Assembly (NCBI GenBank): GCA_030615105.1
Contig: JAUWZV010000012.1
Location: 1-33,224 of the forward strand
From: Desulfobacteraceae bacterium
GTDB lineage: Bacteria; Desulfobacterota; DSM-4660; Desulfatiglandales; B25-G16
Reading direction: 5' to 3'
DNA: 33,224 nucleotides
Shown piece after piece: positions 1 to 27,158 of the stretch. Positions within the stretch are counted from its first letter, which is position 1, and each line of letters starts with the position of its first letter. The notes under the pieces were generated by a model. The model did no database searches. It saw only the letters and a list, made by a program, of their open reading frames with translations, and was not told the DNA's origin. The translations under genes were made by a program, and so were the position numbers.

Positions 1-748
1 GGCAAGCGCAAGGGGCGGTTCACAGAGATAACCGGACCGTAGTCGGGTAATAAATAATAACCAATAGCTCTTTGAAAAGCTGAAGGTCATCATCTGGAAC
101 GGGCGATTCCATGACGTGCCTCACGTTCACATATCCATTCGGATTCTTTATGTCATGAGAACTCATAGAGGCTCCTTTCCATACTCTGTGTTTGGCCCTT
201 CGCCTTTATCTGCCTCCGGCGGAATGTCCTGATCATTGCATCAGGCGTTTGGCTACTATGACCTCTGCTGACTTCTGCCCAATCACACTATGAATTGCTC
301 CAAGGTGCGCTCTTATACCTGCCCTGCTACCATGTTTCGCTCATACCGCTAAGGCAGCTTCACGATATGCCCAGGCTTGTTTCACCAGTGGCCTGACTGG
401 TTTTCTTTTAGAACAGGTATTAAGATCGCCCGTTGAGCAGATCTCCCCGGATAAGGACGTGAACTTTCTCCACACAACCGCAGCATTTACCCTATCCCCC
501 GAACCCTGGGCTTTGTCATGTTGTGCTGACTTACCCGGAAACTGGCCCTTGTATGCTGTTCCTGTCCGTCGGCTCATGGATTTGCACTCCGGCTTCCTTC
601 AGACCCTCCCTCACGGGAACGCCCTTGCCTTCGGCTAGTACTTTTGTTAACGTATTTAACCATTAACAGGATTCACGTACAGGGGACTTCCATCCCATAA
701 GTTCACGCCCCCCGATAAGTCGGGATCTGCGACATGCCGGGCGTACAC
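1..748 (-). mobile_element. Group IIC intron, 5' ribozyme part, inserted in an attC site
   Basis: Read on the - strand, the stretch from about 746-748 downward has the layout of a bacterial group IIC intron: a 5' end resembling the family start GTGCGCCCGGCATG (here GTACGCCCGGCATG from 746), a hairpin with GGGATGGAAGTCCC (684-697), the internal GTCTGAAGGAAGCCGG segment (about 580-597), and GCAGAAGTCAGCAGAGGTCATAGTA (258-282) of the late domain I region. The exact 5' end is ambiguous by two bases because GT is repeated. The 5' exon is the left arm of an attC-like repeat, and the intron lies antiparallel to the cassette genes, as is known for group IIC-attC introns. No reverse transcriptase is recognisable before the left edge, so completeness cannot be judged. 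Confidence 0.75.
20..166 (-). CDS. Small 48-residue ORF inside the intron
   Basis: An ATG at 166 follows a plausible ribosome binding site (AAGGAG about 7 bases upstream) and opens 48 codons ending at TGA 20-22. It lies where the intron-encoded reverse transcriptase usually begins. The protein starts MSSHDIKNPNGYV and contains an acidic PDDDLQLFKELL stretch, and I do not recognise reverse transcriptase motifs. It may be a genuine small protein, or the front of an intron-encoded protein broken by a frameshift near codon 36, since a second frame stays open to the left edge. Function unknown. Confidence 0.3.
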   Translation of the reverse strand: MSSHDIKNPNGYVNVRHVMESPVPDDDLQLFKELLVIIYYPTTVRLSL

Positions 749-1420: not shown

Positions 1421-2002
1421 GTGTTAATAATAGGGTTCATGGGGGCTATCCAACTAGTAATTGCAATCCTTAAAATGACACCAGATATTTTAGGGAGATT
1501 GTCGAGATCATATATTTCCTTTAGTACACGCATGTTGGATAACCTTTCTGCCCAAAAAGCTGATGCCATAATTGGATTGCTTTTGGTTTCATTTGCCTTT
1601 GTTATACAATTAATGACAGAAATTTTTGTCACTAACTCTTTTACTCTACCATTTACGCATAGAGATAGCGTTTTATTCATAATCTTAATAGGCCTTGTTT
1701 TGTTCTCAGTAATTCGTGTATTTCATAGGATTCTACGGAAACAAATTCGGATCAATGCCGGAAAGGCCCTTATTGTAGCGCAAGCGAAAGAAGAGTGGTT
1801 TAATCATAAACCTATCCGCAATGTAAGAATTAAACCCATTGAGAGGAGCACAAAACTTCTTTGTTTCTTTGAAAGAAGTGATAATGAGGATACACTAGAG
1901 TTTCTTAGGAGGCTAGGTAGTTATATAAAATTCGACCTAATTGATTTTATAAAGGAACGATATAATATTGACGAGGAGTCGATTTCCCAGCATTTGAAAT
2001 AA
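1421..2002 (+). CDS. Three-helix membrane protein of unknown function, cassette gene
   Basis: The predicted protein of 193 residues has hydrophobic segments at about residues 2-18, 47-65 and 83-102, followed by a basic region and a soluble C-terminal tail of about 85 residues containing an acidic SDNEDTLEFL patch. It is likely an inner-membrane protein with a cytoplasmic tail, but no family is recognised. The GTG at 1421 is the first usable start; the frame is open from 1370 without an ATG, so the true N-terminus is uncertain. Its stop codon is 4 bases from the next attC site, typical of tightly packed cassettes. Confidence 0.55.
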   Translation: MLIIGFMGAIQLVIAILKMTPDILGRLSRSYISFSTRMLDNLSAQKADAIIGLLLVSFAFVIQLMTEIFVTNSFTLPFTHRDSVLFIILIGLVLFSVIRVFHRILRKQIRINAGKALIVAQAKEEWFNHKPIRNVRIKPIERSTKLLCFFERSDNEDTLEFLRRLGSYIKFDLIDFIKERYNIDEESISQHLK

Positions 2003-2006
2003 TAGT

Positions 2007-2080
2007 TGCTAACCCCTGGCTGGACGCCGACTGGGGTTCCGCTGGCGCTCCACCCCAGCCGGTCAGCCAGCACGTTGTGC
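2007..2080 (+). repeat. attC-like recombination site
   Basis: The left box GCTAAC (2008-2013) and right core GTTGTGC (2074-2080) bound a 74-base imperfect palindrome. The left arm CTGGCTGGACGCCGACTGGGG pairs with the right arm CCCCAGCCGGTCAGCCAG, leaving a short central loop. Unpaired bases in one arm are typical of attC hairpins. Confidence 0.85.
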
Positions 2081-2097
2081 GTCAAGATGGAGATCCA

Positions 2098-2931
2098 ATG
2101 GAAGAAAATGACATGAGTTCTGTAAATAAAGAAGGTTTTTTGGCTGAACACATAAACCAGTGGATCGAAAAACATAGAAAAGAAAATTCTGAGTTGTTCA
2201 AATTATGTGAGGATATTAATCGATTCTCTCATAGCACTATGCTTAACATTACAATTCACAATAAATATCTACCCGAAATTATTGGTGCATCATTGTACAT
2301 TAAGGCTATGAGTAATTTTCAAGGAGTGATCCTCATGGCAGAGCGTGGTATGATAAATGAAGCAAAAGCTTTACTAAGATGCCTCCTTGAATGCCAGTTT
2401 GCTATAGTTGCCGTCGATAAAGATAAAAACATCGTTGATCAATTTGTGTTAAAAGATCAACTTCAACGAAGAGATTACTTAAAGGCATATGTAAGAAATA
2501 AAAAGGCAGGTATTGCTCATCCCGAGGATGCACCATCTTTGGAAGAAATCGATAATCTTTTACAGGATATTAAAAAACAAATTAAGAAAAAAAGTATAAA
2601 AAAATTAACAAAACGAGATCTTGCTGAAAAGGCAGGATTATTGACAACATATGACTCTGCTTACAAAATCCTCAGTGGGACTATTCATGTGAATGCTCGT
2701 GATTTGGAACAGTATTTAGATCTTAATGATGAGGGAGAAATTAAAGGTTTTATATGGGGGCCAGATGTGGAAGAAATTGATGCCATATTATTTACTGCTG
2801 CAGAAAGTATGTTTTTTATATTAGTCGGTATTGCCCGCATTTTTTCTTTGTCATTTGATGTTACGTGGGAGAAGCTTCAGGAGAAATACAAAAGCCTTGC
2901 TAACAATTTAAATAAATCGGTTTTAACTTAA
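2098..2931 (+). CDS. DUF5677-like protein, cassette gene
   Basis: The protein (277 residues from the ATG at 2098) is largely alpha-helical. A segment near residues 70-110 (ILMAERGMINEAKALLRCLL) resembles the conserved helical region of DUF5677-family proteins, whose function is unknown. A central lysine-rich stretch (about residues 160-180) probably forms a charged helix. The longer frame begins at a GTG at 2077 inside the attC core. The ATG at 2098 is preferred because a GGAG lies about 6 bases before it. The cassette is closed by the attC at 2955-3026. No catalytic motif is seen. Confidence 0.7.
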   Translation: MEENDMSSVNKEGFLAEHINQWIEKHRKENSELFKLCEDINRFSHSTMLNITIHNKYLPEIIGASLYIKAMSNFQGVILMAERGMINEAKALLRCLLECQFAIVAVDKDKNIVDQFVLKDQLQRRDYLKAYVRNKKAGIAHPEDAPSLEEIDNLLQDIKKQIKKKSIKKLTKRDLAEKAGLLTTYDSAYKILSGTIHVNARDLEQYLDLNDEGEIKGFIWGPDVEEIDAILFTAAESMFFILVGIARIFSLSFDVTWEKLQEKYKSLANNLNKSVLT

Positions 2932-2954
2932 TATTTTTCCTTCAATATAAACTC

Positions 2955-3026
2955 GCACAACATCACAATTCACCAGATCAGCTACAGCCTGCGGCTTCCG
3001 CTGCCTGGTGATCGTGGGCGTTCGGC
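2955..3026 (+). repeat. attC-like recombination site
   Basis: The left box GCACAAC (2955-2961) and right core GTTCGGC (3020-3026) bound a 72-base imperfect inverted repeat, with AATTCACCAG on the left pairing with CTGGTGATCGTGGG on the right, and a GC-rich loop. It follows the DUF5677-like gene by 23 bases. Confidence 0.8.
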
Positions 3027-3043
3027 TTTTGAAGAGGAATTAT

Positions 3044-3075
3044 TTGACTTGCGTTGTAGAATTATCGTCTATACT
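3044..3075 (+). promoter_or_regulatory. Possible cassette-borne promoter
   Basis: TTGACT at 3044-3049 and TATACT at 3070-3075 resemble sigma70 elements, but the spacer is 20 bases. An alternative -35, TTGCGT at 3049-3054, gives 15. Neither is ideal, so this is tentative. It lies just after the attC core and 55 bases before the first gene of the two-gene cassette. Confidence 0.3.
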
Positions 3076-3130
3076 GTTAAAAATGAAAATTTTGTAATGT
3101 AATGTATAAATGGGAGGGTAAGTAGATCAT

Positions 3131-3385
3131 ATGAAGTGGTCAGAAATGCGAAAAAAATATCCTGCTAAATTCATTTTGATTGGTGACCTTGTAGAAGAAA
3201 AGATTTCAGAGACCCAATCTAAGATTATAGAAGGTAAGATTTTGAAAGTTAGTGATGATGGAAAAGAAATCAGGGAAGCCTACCAGCAGTACAAACAGAA
3301 AGGTATTGAGGTATTATATTCTCTTCCTACTACTTCTGCAGAGTTTATAGTTGAAAATGTGCCGTTTAAAGGGATCTTAACATGA
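3131..3385 (+). CDS. Small protein paired with a retropepsin-like protease
   Basis: This 84-residue protein begins MKWSEMRKKYP and alternates charged helical and beta-like stretches; no signal peptide or membrane segment is seen. Its stop overlaps the next gene by 4 bases (ATGA at 3382-3385), which indicates translational coupling. From memory, small proteins starting MKW..(I/V)R..YP are found next to clan AA aspartic proteases in other bacteria, so it may be a partner, substrate or regulator of the protease. That role is inference. GGGAGG about 15 bases upstream is somewhat far for a ribosome binding site. Confidence 0.7.
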   Translation: MKWSEMRKKYPAKFILIGDLVEEKISETQSKIIEGKILKVSDDGKEIREAYQQYKQKGIEVLYSLPTTSAEFIVENVPFKGILT

Positions 3386-3762
3386 TCTTTCAGTGGAAAC
3401 ATGGATTAATATGGATAACATTTGAGGTTGTATATGAAGGGAAAGGCATCAAAATTGACAATTGTATCTTAGATACAGGCTCTGCAACGACAGCAATTGA
3501 TATCGATTTGGTTGATTTTAATTACCGAAAACCTGCTGCGATAAAGCGTTTGTTTGGAATAGGTGGAGGTACACACGAGGTAGTAGCTCAAAAGGTTGAT
3601 AAAGTCATCATTGATGAAAATGAGTTAAAGGATATTGAAATTGAATTCGGAGGCATTAAGTCGGAATTAGGAATAAATGGATTTATCGGTAACGATATCT
3701 TAAGTCTGTTTACTATCACTATTGTATATTCAAAGCAAGAAATTGAGTTAAGATTTCAATAG
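3382..3762 (+). CDS. Retropepsin-like aspartic protease, cassette gene
   Basis: The 126-residue protein carries the clan AA signature LDTGSATTAI at about residues 30-39, where the Asp would be catalytic in a homodimer. Flap-like and psi-loop features (FGIGGGTHEVV near 65-75, then INGFIGNDIL near 104-113) are in the expected order for single-domain retropepsins. It has no signal peptide, so it should act in the cytoplasm. It overlaps the upstream small gene by 4 bases and shares its cassette, which is closed by the attC at 3779-3907. Substrate unknown. Confidence 0.8.
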   Translation: MIFQWKHGLIWITFEVVYEGKGIKIDNCILDTGSATTAIDIDLVDFNYRKPAAIKRLFGIGGGTHEVVAQKVDKVIIDENELKDIEIEFGGIKSELGINGFIGNDILSLFTITIVYSKQEIELRFQ

Positions 3763-3778
3763 GTTATTGAATCCAAAA

Positions 3779-3907
3779 ACCGAACAAAAGGTTCGAGCAG
3801 ACGGCGAGAAACCGTGGCGCTTAACAACTAATAGATTTAAGGTAGATTTTTTGATTTTTGTTCTTTATCAGTTTTAAGCTCGCCGCTGCTCAACCTTGCC
3901 GTTAGAT
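3779..3907 (+). repeat. attC-like recombination site, long type
   Basis: The left arm CGAACAAAAGGTTCGAGCAG (3781-3800) continued by ACGGCGAG pairs with the right arm CTCGCCGCTGCTCAACCTTGCC continued by the core GTTAGAT at 3901-3907. The two arms are separated by an AT-rich variable region, giving about 129 bases in all. This is one of the clearest attC sites in the window. Confidence 0.9.
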
Positions 3908-22705: not shown

Positions 22706-24055
22706 ATGGGAAAGTTGTTTGGTACTGACGGGGTAAGAGGTGTAGCAAATGAACACCCTATGACTGCAGAGATGGCCTTGAATATTGGAAGGGCAACTGC
22801 ACATTTGTTTAAACGGAAGGGTCATGCACCCAGGATCATCATTGGAAAAGATACTCGTATCTCTGGATACATGCTTGAAAACGCCCTGGTGTCAGGGATC
22901 TGCTCTATGGGGGTAAATGCCCTCCTGGTTGGGCCACTACCCACACCAGGCATTGCCTTTACAACCAATAGTATGAGGGCTGATGCAGGTATTGTAATAT
23001 CTGCCTCTCACAATCCATTTCAGGACAATGGCATCAAGATATTTTCTCGCGAAGGCCTCAAGCTCCCCGATGAAAAGGAGCTCGAGATAGAAAAACTGAT
23101 ATTTTCTAATAAAATGCATACCTTGCATCCATCCCCAAATGAATTGGGTAAGGCCTATAGGATTGATGATGCGAGAGGCCGGTACATTGTCTTTCTCAAG
23201 AGCACCTTTCCCAAGGACTATACCCTTGAAGGAACCAAGGTCGTTTTGGACTGTGCCCATGGGGCTACCTATAAAGTGGCACCGGAGACCTTCTTTGAGT
23301 TAGGGGCTGATGTCACCTCCCTCTTTGATGAGCCTAATGGAGAGAATATCAACGCAAATTGTGGATCTCAGCACCCGGAAACCTTGATGGAGGAGGTAGT
23401 CAAAAGAAAGGCGGATGTGGGTTTTGCCTTTGATGGGGATGGCGATCGCTGTATTGCGGTTGATGAAAAGGGATCGGTGCTCACAGGAGACCAAATCATG
23501 GCCATTTGTGCCAGGGAGATGAAAAAGGAGGGTAAACTGGCTCACAATCTGCTTGTAACTACTGTTATGAGTAACATTGGTCTTGGAATTGCACTAAAGG
23601 AGCTTGGTAGCGAACAGCTAATAACCCAGGTCGGTGATAGATATGTGTTGGAGGAGATGCAAGCAAAGGGGGCTTCAATTGGTGGAGAAGAATCAGGGCA
23701 TGTGATCTTTCTGGAGCATCACACCACAGGTGATGGGATTATTACCGCTTTGCAGGTTCTGTCTGCCATGAAAAAGACCCAAAAATCCCTCTCGGAGCTA
23801 GCCCAAGTCATGAAGGTTTTCCCTCAAAAACTCATTAATATGGACGTAGAGACCAAGCCTGAATTATCTACTATTCCCGAGATAGGTGAGGTTATTAGAG
23901 ATGTAGAAGAGCAACTGGGCGATAAGGGAAGGGTCTTGGTGCGGTACTCAGGAACGCAGCCAATGTGCCGTGTTATGGTAGAGGGGCCTACTGACGAGGA
24001 GACTGAGAAATACTGTAGGCAAATTGTTGATGTAATCCGGGAAAAACTCAGTTGA
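22706..24055 (+). CDS. glmM: Phosphoglucosamine mutase
   Basis: GlmM isomerises glucosamine-6-phosphate to glucosamine-1-phosphate in the UDP-GlcNAc pathway. The 449-residue protein has all key elements in order: TDGVRGVAN at the start, the phosphoserine loop [14 protein letters not shown] (about residues 97-110), the Mg-binding FDGDGDR (about 240), GEESGH (about 328), and the phosphate-binding RYSGTQP loop near the C-terminus. The ATG follows AAAGGAGG. It lies 52 bases after the GlmU-like gene and 25 before the NagB-like gene on the same strand, forming one operon. Confidence 0.97.
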
Positions 24056-25232: not shown

Positions 25233-25575
25233 CGTAAACCCTATTCATGTCCCGTTAAATAATGTCCCGCTGCTATCTGTAACTTTGAATGCCCCGACAT
25301 GATTATGCCCTTCTATTTAAAAGAGTGAACAGCCAAGTGCTAACATGTCCCCAACAAAGGGAAACAGATGGTTCAGACGGCTGAGCCTTTCCTTGACTAT
25401 CCAGACTCCCATCTCCCACCATCTAACCCATCCTATAATCAGCTTTATGTCGAAGACCTGCCTCTGGTGTAGTTGGTGATCAGTATTCTGAAGGTTTCTC
25501 TGCATAGTTTAAAATTGTAAGACAGATTTGATCTGAAAATAAACTTGATTTATTCGTTAAAAGTCATGAACCGGG

Positions 25576-25662
25576 GTCATTGCGAGGGCTTTAGCCCGAA
25601 GCAATCTAATAAATACAATAAGCTATGGAATAGGAGATTGCTTCGCTCCGCTCGCAATGACA
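25576..25662. repeat. Palindromic intergenic repeat, GTCATTGCGAG type
   Basis: The left arm (25576-25607) starts GTCATTGCGAG and ends GAAGCAATCT. The right arm (25635-25662) is its inverted copy, AGATTGCTTCG...CTCGCAATGACA. Such palindromes recur in many deltaproteobacterial and other genomes. The rest of the gap (25233-25820) has no convincing gene; only a 34-codon ATG frame at 25368-25472 was seen. Confidence 0.75.
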
Positions 25663-25784
25663 TGCTTTTGGAATTTTTCCGGGACTATCAAACTTACTAT
25701 TTTCATCCTTCGTGGTGCCCAGAATAGGCATGAAGGTTTGCTTTGAAAAAGCAGACCTTTATCAACCAGTTACACGCCATTGCT

Positions 25785-26213
25785 CAATGCAAAATGAAAA
25801 GTATAAATTGAAAAATGCAAAATGAAAGAAAATAACCTTTCGGAACGATTATTAAACTTCGCTGCTGAAGTTATCAAGCTAGCTGTCAAACTCAACAAAA
25901 CTGCTGTTGGACCTCATATTGGAGTGCAATTAACACGTGCATCGACATCAGCAGGTGCAAATTATGAAGAGGCTTGCGGTGCTGAAAGTCGTGCTGATTT
26001 CATTCATAAATTGCAGATAGTATTGAAAGAACTACGAGAGTCGCTTTATTGGTTACGTTTAATAAGAAAGACGAATCTGATTTCAGGTCCAGCTTTGGAG
26101 AAGCTTATCCAGGAAGGTAAAGAACTGACCAATATTATAGCTAAATCGATAGTTACAGCAAAGAAAGGTAAATAATTTTGCAATTTGCATTTTGATATTT
26201 TTATTTTTCATTG
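25785..26213. repeat. Inverted flanks around the four-helix-bundle gene
   Basis: A left flank at 25785-25826 (containing two direct copies of AATGCAAAATGAAA at 25786-25799 and 25814-25827) and a right flank at about 26176-26213 (TTTGCATTTTG...TTTTTCATTG) are approximate reverse complements. The gene's start codon lies in the second left copy. Intervening sequences in 23S rRNA are bounded by similar pairing flanks. Confidence 0.6.
25822..26175 (+). CDS. Four-helix bundle protein (23S rRNA intervening-sequence type)
   Basis: This 117-residue all-helical protein fits the family of proteins encoded in 23S rRNA intervening sequences: LNFAAEVIKLAVKL near the start, then LTRASTSAGANYEEACGAESRADFIHKL (about residues 37-65), a conserved core, and LRESLYWLRLI. 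The family forms pentameric bundles of unknown cellular function. This copy is not in an rRNA gene. It is bounded by inverted flanks and followed by an attC-like site at 26239-26307, so it may be a mobile cassette. Confidence 0.88.
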   Translation: MKENNLSERLLNFAAEVIKLAVKLNKTAVGPHIGVQLTRASTSAGANYEEACGAESRADFIHKLQIVLKELRESLYWLRLIRKTNLISGPALEKLIQEGKELTNIIAKSIVTAKKGK

Positions 26214-26238
26214 AGGTTTGCGAAAAAAACGCAACCGC

Positions 26239-26307
26239 GCATAACAGCGTGTTTGCGACGCTTCGCTAAATGCCTTCGGTACTTCGCAAACACGCAAACC
26301 GTTAACG
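26239..26307 (+). repeat. attC-like recombination site
   Basis: The left box GCATAAC (26239-26245) and right core GTTAACG (26301-26307) bound a 69-base imperfect palindrome. AGCGTGTTTGCGACG pairs with CTTCGCAAACACGCAAACC. It lies between the four-helix-bundle gene and the antitoxin promoter, far from the main array. Confidence 0.75.
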
Positions 26308-26313
26308 TTTGTA

Positions 26314-26344
26314 TTGACAATGTATTAACTTTGAGATACATTGT
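26314..26344 (+). promoter_or_regulatory. Antitoxin promoter with overlapping operator
   Basis: TTGACA (26314-26319), a 17-base spacer and TACATT (26337-26342) form a near-consensus promoter. A perfect 9-base inverted repeat, ACAATGTAT (26317-26325) and ATACATTGT (26336-26344), overlaps both elements and would suit autorepression by the antitoxin dimer. Confidence 0.75.
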
Positions 26345-26393
26345 GTAATAAATATAGATTCAGCATTTTTTAAATATTATAAGAGTGGGAATC

Positions 26394-26654
26394 ATGGCTA
26401 AAAATACAAATATAAATGTTAGAACAACCGAGGATATTAAAAAGGGTGCAGAGGTCATTCTTAATGGCCTCGGATTAAATATCTCCTCAGCAATTAATCT
26501 TTTTTTGAAACAAGTTATCAATTACAGGGGTATCCCGTTTGATTTGCGACTTCCTAACAAGGAAACGCTACATGCTATGGATGACATTGAAAATAATCGT
26601 AATCTTGAGTCAGCAGATACCGTTGAAGAAATGTTCAAAAAGATCGGTGTATGA
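26394..26654 (+). CDS. RelB/DinJ-family antitoxin
   Basis: The 86-residue protein starts MAKNTNINVRTTEDIKKGAEVILNGLGLN, the ribbon-helix-helix DNA-binding start typical of RelB/DinJ antitoxins (the ATTEDIK strand, then the GLNISSAINLFLKQVI helix), and continues with FDLRLPNKETLHAMDDIE, the usual toxin-binding linker. The ATG at 26394 is chosen over the GTG at 26385 because it starts the domain. It overlaps the toxin frame by 8 bases and carries its own promoter-operator. It appears intact, while its toxin is truncated. Confidence 0.88.
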   Translation: MAKNTNINVRTTEDIKKGAEVILNGLGLNISSAINLFLKQVINYRGIPFDLRLPNKETLHAMDDIENNRNLESADTVEEMFKKIGV

Positions 26655-26849
26655 TTTTAAGAAACTAATATGGACAAAGAGGTTCTCTAAGGATGTCAAT
26701 CGAGCGAAAAGGCGTAACAAGAATTTAGACTCTCTGCAAAAAGTTATTAAAATGCTGCAATCAGGTGACAACCTACCCCAGGAATACAAACCTCATCCCT
26801 TAAAAGGCAAATACTCAGGTTATATGGAATGCCATATTGAACCGGAAAG
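26647..26849 (+). pseudogene. Truncated YafQ/RelE-type toxin
   Basis: Starting at a GTG inside the antitoxin's last codons, the frame matches YafQ toxins: KLIWTKRFSKDVNRAKRRNKNLDSL, then QEYKPHPLKGKYSGYMECHIEP. After that family-like part (about residue 67) the sequence changes to unrelated codons, so the C-terminal segment with the remaining catalytic residues (including the last His and the Asp-Trp region) is missing. The loss coincides with the end of an antiparallel antitoxin fragment, suggesting a recombination junction near 26846-26850. Its mRNA endonuclease activity should be lost. Confidence 0.75.
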
Positions 26850-26963
26850 GTACTCGCGCAAGGCATGCTCGATCAATGCCGAGCGGGTTTTTGGTTTTTC
26901 GATCACCTGTTCAATGGCTTTTATGATTTCCTCGGAAAGTGTTATAGATCTCTTGATTTTCAT
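26820..26963 (-). pseudogene. Truncated ribbon-helix-helix (CopG-type) antitoxin
   Basis: On the - strand the ATG at 26963, preceded by AAAGAAG, opens a 47-residue frame starting MKIKRSITLSEEIIKAIEQ and continuing KTRSALIEHALREYL, the pattern of CopG/VapB-like ribbon-helix-helix DNA-binding domains. It ends after a short tail read antisense through the YafQ fragment, so the toxin-binding half is lost. No toxin follows it. The fragment faces the YafQ remnant, a junction of two addiction modules. Confidence 0.65.
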
Positions 26964-27158
26964 ACTTCTTTGATACATAATTTTCTTTGTGTCCCCATTC
27001 TATTGAAAAAAAGATGTAAAAAGTCAGTCATACTGGATCTTTTAAGGCAATGAAAATTCTTCATGAAAACCCCCATGTTAAAGGCATTCAATAGGATTTT
27101 TCAATAAAGCGGGGACATTACCATAATTTTTAAAGACCGAATTAATCGGCAATGGGCA

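Follow-up and report, generated by a model that had tools for sequence, protein, structure and literature searches.

A 532-bp segment of the window (the whole stretch of 33,224 nt that we analyzed, which is one entire contig, C4, of an 81%-complete draft assembly with 171 contigs totalling 2.46 Mb) is very probably an integron gene cassette that was inserted alone at a non-attC site. We surmise that an IVP element, comprising an S23-type gene and its inverted heptamer arms (25783-26215), came to be carried as cargo in a cassette holding little besides it, and that an integron integrase then put the circular cassette, via its attC site, into a G^TT site ahead of relB-yafQ, outside any array. 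The agent would thus be an integron integrase, the substrate would be circular, with its attC folded as a single strand, and entry of the element into the cassette would have preceded the insertion. The family overall would move as a heptamer-armed element by some other route, with the cassette being a chance ride. Taken as a whole, this explanation, with cassette insertion at this locus and a different general route for the family, appears likely to us. The cassette reading draws on the G^TT joints, the empty sites in two other genomes, a hairpin of like type in a genome of the same phylum (G094), a cassette array elsewhere on the contig, and the genome's three integrases.

The gene within this segment is intact (64.1 bits to PF05635 vs. 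a curated cut-off of 33.8) and its protein matches PDB 2rld (E 6e-16), in agreement with the sequence-only reading, which had called it a four-helix-bundle (rRNA intervening-sequence) gene. It is placed between a nagB-type gene and relB and not inside an rRNA gene; no Rfam rRNA match was found in the window, and the assembly yielded no 23S rRNA of the genome itself. Its stop codon at 26175 is followed on the same strand by the attC-type site, and beyond the insertion a YafQ-type toxin gene lies next to relB. Judged against intact relatives, to which the match stops at 26846, the relB-yafQ module (26385-26973) has lost its toxin end. We rejected this module as a separate cassette, as two related modules (L147 and L149) show by eye no attC around them. 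Immediately to the left of the insertion target, 25699-25747 is a piece of a dispersed repeat of which several copies occur in this genome and in G001, G002, G007 and G025, and farther left is a palindrome (25574-25662, around GATTGCTTCGCTCCGCTCGCAATGAC) of a repeat type familiar from many genomes.

Table 1. Features of the window that bear on the cassette reading (coordinates in nt).
Feature	Position	Strand	Remark
Array ORF	1421-2002	+	no Pfam match
Cassette array on the same contig	2007-3907	+	attC-like sites 2007-2080, 2955-3026 and 3779-3907, each after a + strand ORF
Array ORF	2077-2931	+	DUF5677
Array ORF	3131-3762	+	weak aspartyl-protease match
Target-side flank left of insertion	25737-25769	+	palindromic here; palindrome not kept in G081
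Left junction GTTACAC	25769-25775	+	target G, then cassette TT
Inserted segment, read as a single integron gene cassette	25770-26301	+	532 bp; breakpoints G^TT at 25769/25770 and 26301/26302
5' arm, degenerate heptamers (TGCAAAA/TGAAAAA type)	25783-25829	+	overlaps start codon
S23 / 23S_rRNA_IVP (four-helix-bundle) gene	25822-26175	+	117 aa, intact; PF05635
3' arm, inverted heptamers	26176-26215	+	pairs with 5' arm
attC-type site	26239-26307	+	R'' GCATAAC 26239-26245; R' GTTAACG 26301-26307; scanner score 17.8
Target-side flank holding the relB antitoxin gene and its promoter region	26302-26654	+	relB 26385-26654, PF04221 70.4 bits

The pairing flanks that had been described around the gene are borne out, with arms (25780-25827 vs. 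26178-26225) that are 73% complementary, a pairing score of 25 (z 8.7) and a fold of 25718-26330 at -167.3 kcal/mol (z = -4.65, 20 shuffles); the window copy has complementary termini able to form a long stem. Remnants of this arm type, with no intact S23 gene, were seen on four other contigs of the same genome (C43, C162, C154 and C32; L018, L019, L020 and L021), of which one precedes a tRNA-like sequence and one bears another insertion.

At the 3' end of the gene, the attC-type site keeps the invariant letters of both boxes: R'' retains AAC and fits RYYYAAC at 3 of 4 variable positions, while R', whose last six bases are target side, retains GTT and fits GTTRRRY at 2 of 4. The stem between them (GCGTGTTTGCGA/TCGCAAACACGC at 26247-26258 / 26284-26295) is 12 bp and perfect, is not trailed by a run of T, and shows no extrahelical base. 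Such a base is typical of attC stems, and its absence, like the limited fit of R', weighs against the attC reading; by eye, it is likewise absent in the hairpins of G094:C15 and L195. As judged by a purpose-made scanner that scores boxes R'' and R' plus stem, the site reaches 17.8 in the orientation of the gene vs. 16.6-20.3 for class-1 attC sites in array orientation. The scanner recovered 7 of the 12 class-1 cassette attC sites implied by annotated cassettes, so that some attC sites would be missed in a survey, and the block-shuffled window gave 0.006 hits/kb/strand at this score, and thus about 0.002 expected per 320-nt 3' flank. As a site of equal score (22808-22934) falls within a coding ORF (22706-24055), the score by itself is not decisive, and we regard the junctions described below as the stronger evidence. 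The good attC-like site proposed for the 3' end of the gene stands as a hairpin of the attC type. For the weaker one proposed upstream, the palindrome (ending at about 25762) is real but the scanner finds no site at 25718-25775, and we rejected it as a second attC; the GTTACAC that was to end it is the left junction of the insertion.

A DNA search of 118 relatives found hairpins similar to this site. The one in G094:C15, from a genome of the same phylum, shares its stem with the window site and has a perfect R'' box, GCCTAAC, with two additional attC-like sites 2-4 kb away. A partial counterpart in G094:C67 lies behind an ORF that starts, by eye, like MazF, and about 0.9 kb ahead of another attC-like site; further partial look-alikes are on own contig C168 and on G007:C39. 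A narrow attC pattern run over 395 genomes of the phylum matched G094 alone and missed the window site itself, and is therefore too strict for counting.

Integron integrases cut at G^TT, and both breakpoints of the segment fall on this motif. The segment is framed by ...CCAG and TTAACG..., starting with TTACAC... and ending with ...ACCG. A search of 85 genomes of the order with the joined flanks minus 25770-26301 found empty sites in two: 1) G081:C205, with 26 of 33 bases matching left of the joint and CCAG/TTAAC intact (binomial 1e-8); and 2) G083:C50, with 16 of 19 bases matching (binomial 1.5e-6) and T, not G, ahead of TTAAC. The joint at the empty sites reads G/A/T^TTAAC. These homologies span just 33 and 19 nt, and the probabilities assume 30% chance identity. 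The alignment of a third candidate, G012, needs gaps. On the right side, the match of L147 and L149 relB-yafQ to the window (~87%) starts exactly at 26302, which is the T following the G of GTTAACG. On these sequence grounds, the joints are of the integron type.

The genome has three complete integron integrases above the curated cut-off (480, 437.5 and 369.8 bits), with none near the IVP cassette. Upstream of the integrase on contig C124 are attC-like sites. Among integrase loci scanned at a threshold of 16.3, L186 has two doubtful attC sites and L187-L191 have none. On the window itself, the three array sites, in order of position, score 14.5, 15.8 and 20.3 in + orientation and 18.0, 17.5 and 22.0 in the opposite one, with two more attC-like sites recognized by eye alone near 774-844 and 1325-1372. 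The IVP cassette is solitary, 22 kb from this array. Parts of a group II intron (RF01998, RF02001) lie beside the array at 195-620 (-); group II introns of the attC-targeting class occur beside such cassette arrays.

Since GTTA is present at both junctions, the joints also fit a 4-bp target duplication, and an IVP element plus a chance hairpin could have been brought in by transposition, the more so as IVP elements sit at many places without attC. We consider this unlikely, as the ORF list shows no transposase in segment 25770-26301, as homology of the nearest relatives (L066-L068) to the window ends at 26212-26223, short of the hairpin, which is thus not part of their elements, and as the hairpin has the box order of attC and same-type relatives near other attC-like sites. 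A hairpin that is no more than a terminator or repeat beside a chance IVP insertion, with coincidental G^TT joints, would accord with the equal-scoring site inside a coding gene, but both breakpoints are on G^TT, one of the two lies precisely within the R' box, and the T run expected behind a terminator stem is missing; this seems to us improbable. Slightly less improbable is that the filled state is ancestral and that G081 and G083 lost the segment, as the evidence consists of presence and absence alone and its direction is not polarized. The relB-yafQ modules of L147 and L149, with by eye no attC upstream, speak against a loss. A clean loss at G^TT would need integron-type recombination, so that the reading of the segment as a cassette would stand even then.

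A broader alternative, suggested by the sequence-only reading, is that IVP genes generally spread beyond rRNA through capture by integrons. PF05635 was found in 55 of 61 near genomes, some with 10-24 matches, as well as in 80 named loci spread over many phyla of bacteria and several archaea, with at most 81% identity to the window protein. We surveyed 201 of 248 distinct genes (255 hits) for attC and arms, with 47 left out as partial, flankless or with N runs; an earlier set comprised 155 of 188 copies, full-length with both flanks. Copies were picked by bit score and contig room, and thus non-randomly, with only part of the match lists included. Within the 320-nt 3' flank, the window copy alone scored above 16.4, whereas the 5' flanks of the 201 copies yielded a single score of 18.5 (L323). 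The check for attC at the 3' ends of free-standing members thus turned up a credible site in 1 of 201, or a few per cent at most after allowing for the scanner's sensitivity, and archaeal copies are without attC. The survey indicates that integron capture is not the family's general way of spread; the window locus itself speaks for such a route, which we judge highly improbable. What had been proposed about capture thus seems to hold for the window copy, as exemplified by the order and orientation of its attC together with the five lines of evidence named at the outset, but not for the family. Capture appears to have happened at this locus and to be rare, and the window copy looks exceptional among free-standing relatives, which lack cassette packaging. 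Four archaeal copies (L083, L087, L091 and L092) all come after what is apparently one gene end, by eye the purE C-terminus.

What the copies share is the anatomy of their arms. Among the 201 copies, autocorrelation of the flanks was 0.401, 0.375 and 0.351 (5') and 0.375, 0.343 and 0.328 (3') at 7, 14 and 21 nt, vs. 0.25-0.31 at other lags >1, with no 7-nt peak farther out; the periodicity was also present in the 155-copy set. Many copies have a unit of their own, inverted across the gene (GTGACAA, GGCGTTA, AGTAAGC, GTTCCGA, TGCAAAA and others). The median pairing score was 20 for own arms vs. 10 for swapped arms, and pairing z exceeded 3 over shuffles in 137 of the 201 copies, with 64 below. 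In the 155-copy set, the 5-mer cosine of the arms rose with protein identity, from 0.14 (<25%) to 0.45 (70-80%) and 0.56 (80-95%), vs. 0.16-0.17 up to 80% identity and 0.25 above it for the outer flanks. As the arms track the protein lineage and the outer flanks do not, the moving unit is the gene plus its arms. This trend falls short of showing recognition of the arms by the protein, because common descent of the unit predicts the same. Upstream neighbors (n = 183 of the 201) were on the same strand in 146 cases, opposite in 24 and absent in 13, and downstream neighbors (n = 183) in 146, 32 and 5, respectively; where the upstream ORF was on the same strand, its stop codon lay a median of 86 nt from the copy. 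The copies are thus mostly sense-oriented between same-strand neighbors, in counts uncorrected for genome-wide gene orientation.

From these features, we speculate that S23/IVP genes, inside and outside rRNA, belong to a single large class of minimal mobile elements defined by inverted, copy-specific heptamer arms, in which an Avd-like single protein would recognize its own arms and the folded sense transcript would be the mobile or tolerated form, with the window holding such an element riding an integron. This proposal is tentative, and we hold it to be less likely than not. The survey points to inverted arms of seven-base units, moving together with the protein, as the feature general to the family; they make the question of its mobility testable and may account for some of the unexplained heptamer arrays in bacterial genomes. 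The window locus offers one testable transfer event via a known machine.

The closest published counterpart of the element is in 23S rRNA. According to excerpts of a 2016 paper (PMC4990558), which describes as unclear how rRNA intervening sequences arose and spread, the insertion in helix 45 of Coxiella burnetii 23S rRNA carries three tandem GACAGAT heptamers ahead of the S23 ORF, along with a terminal stem of 28 bp, and its excision from the transcript by RNase III has been shown. It thus resembles the window copy in its S23-type gene, terminal stem and tandem heptamers before the gene, and differs in location, as the window copy and all surveyed copies are free-standing, with a heptamer per copy group. 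Since the Coxiella insertion has heptamers too, insertions in rRNA and copies outside it appear to be the same sort of element. The surveyed loci yielded no S23 gene within rRNA, and conserved 23S/16S motifs occurred in them only as chance single matches; the link to rRNA, and with it the likeness to 23S insertions that the earlier reading had asked to be compared, therefore comes from this one published case. It was also the only relevant item on heptamers with S23 or 23S-intervening sequences among the open-licence papers searched, none of which joined four-helix-bundle or S23 to integrons. Avd, the accessory protein of diversity-generating retroelements, is described in an excerpt of PMC10053308 as resembling PF05635. 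Heptamer arrays are known as TAACTGA in Beggiatoaceae (PMC4679880) and GGGAATC in Xanthomonas (PMC4692102), and the excerpts of these papers do not mention the term S23; like the window arms, these arrays are intergenic tandem 7-nt units, in Xanthomonas often as convergent pairs, but the arrays described here border an S23 gene and vary by copy. For the insertion, the parallel is with the lone cassettes at non-classical attG sites (Loot et al. 2024, Nat Microbiol, as cited in excerpts of PMC12901181 and PMC11023631), which share with the window copy a position outside any array, a G^TT joint and a 3' attC. Unlike those cases, the cargo in the window, as read from its sequence, is a second mobile element, and the integrase and host are different ones.
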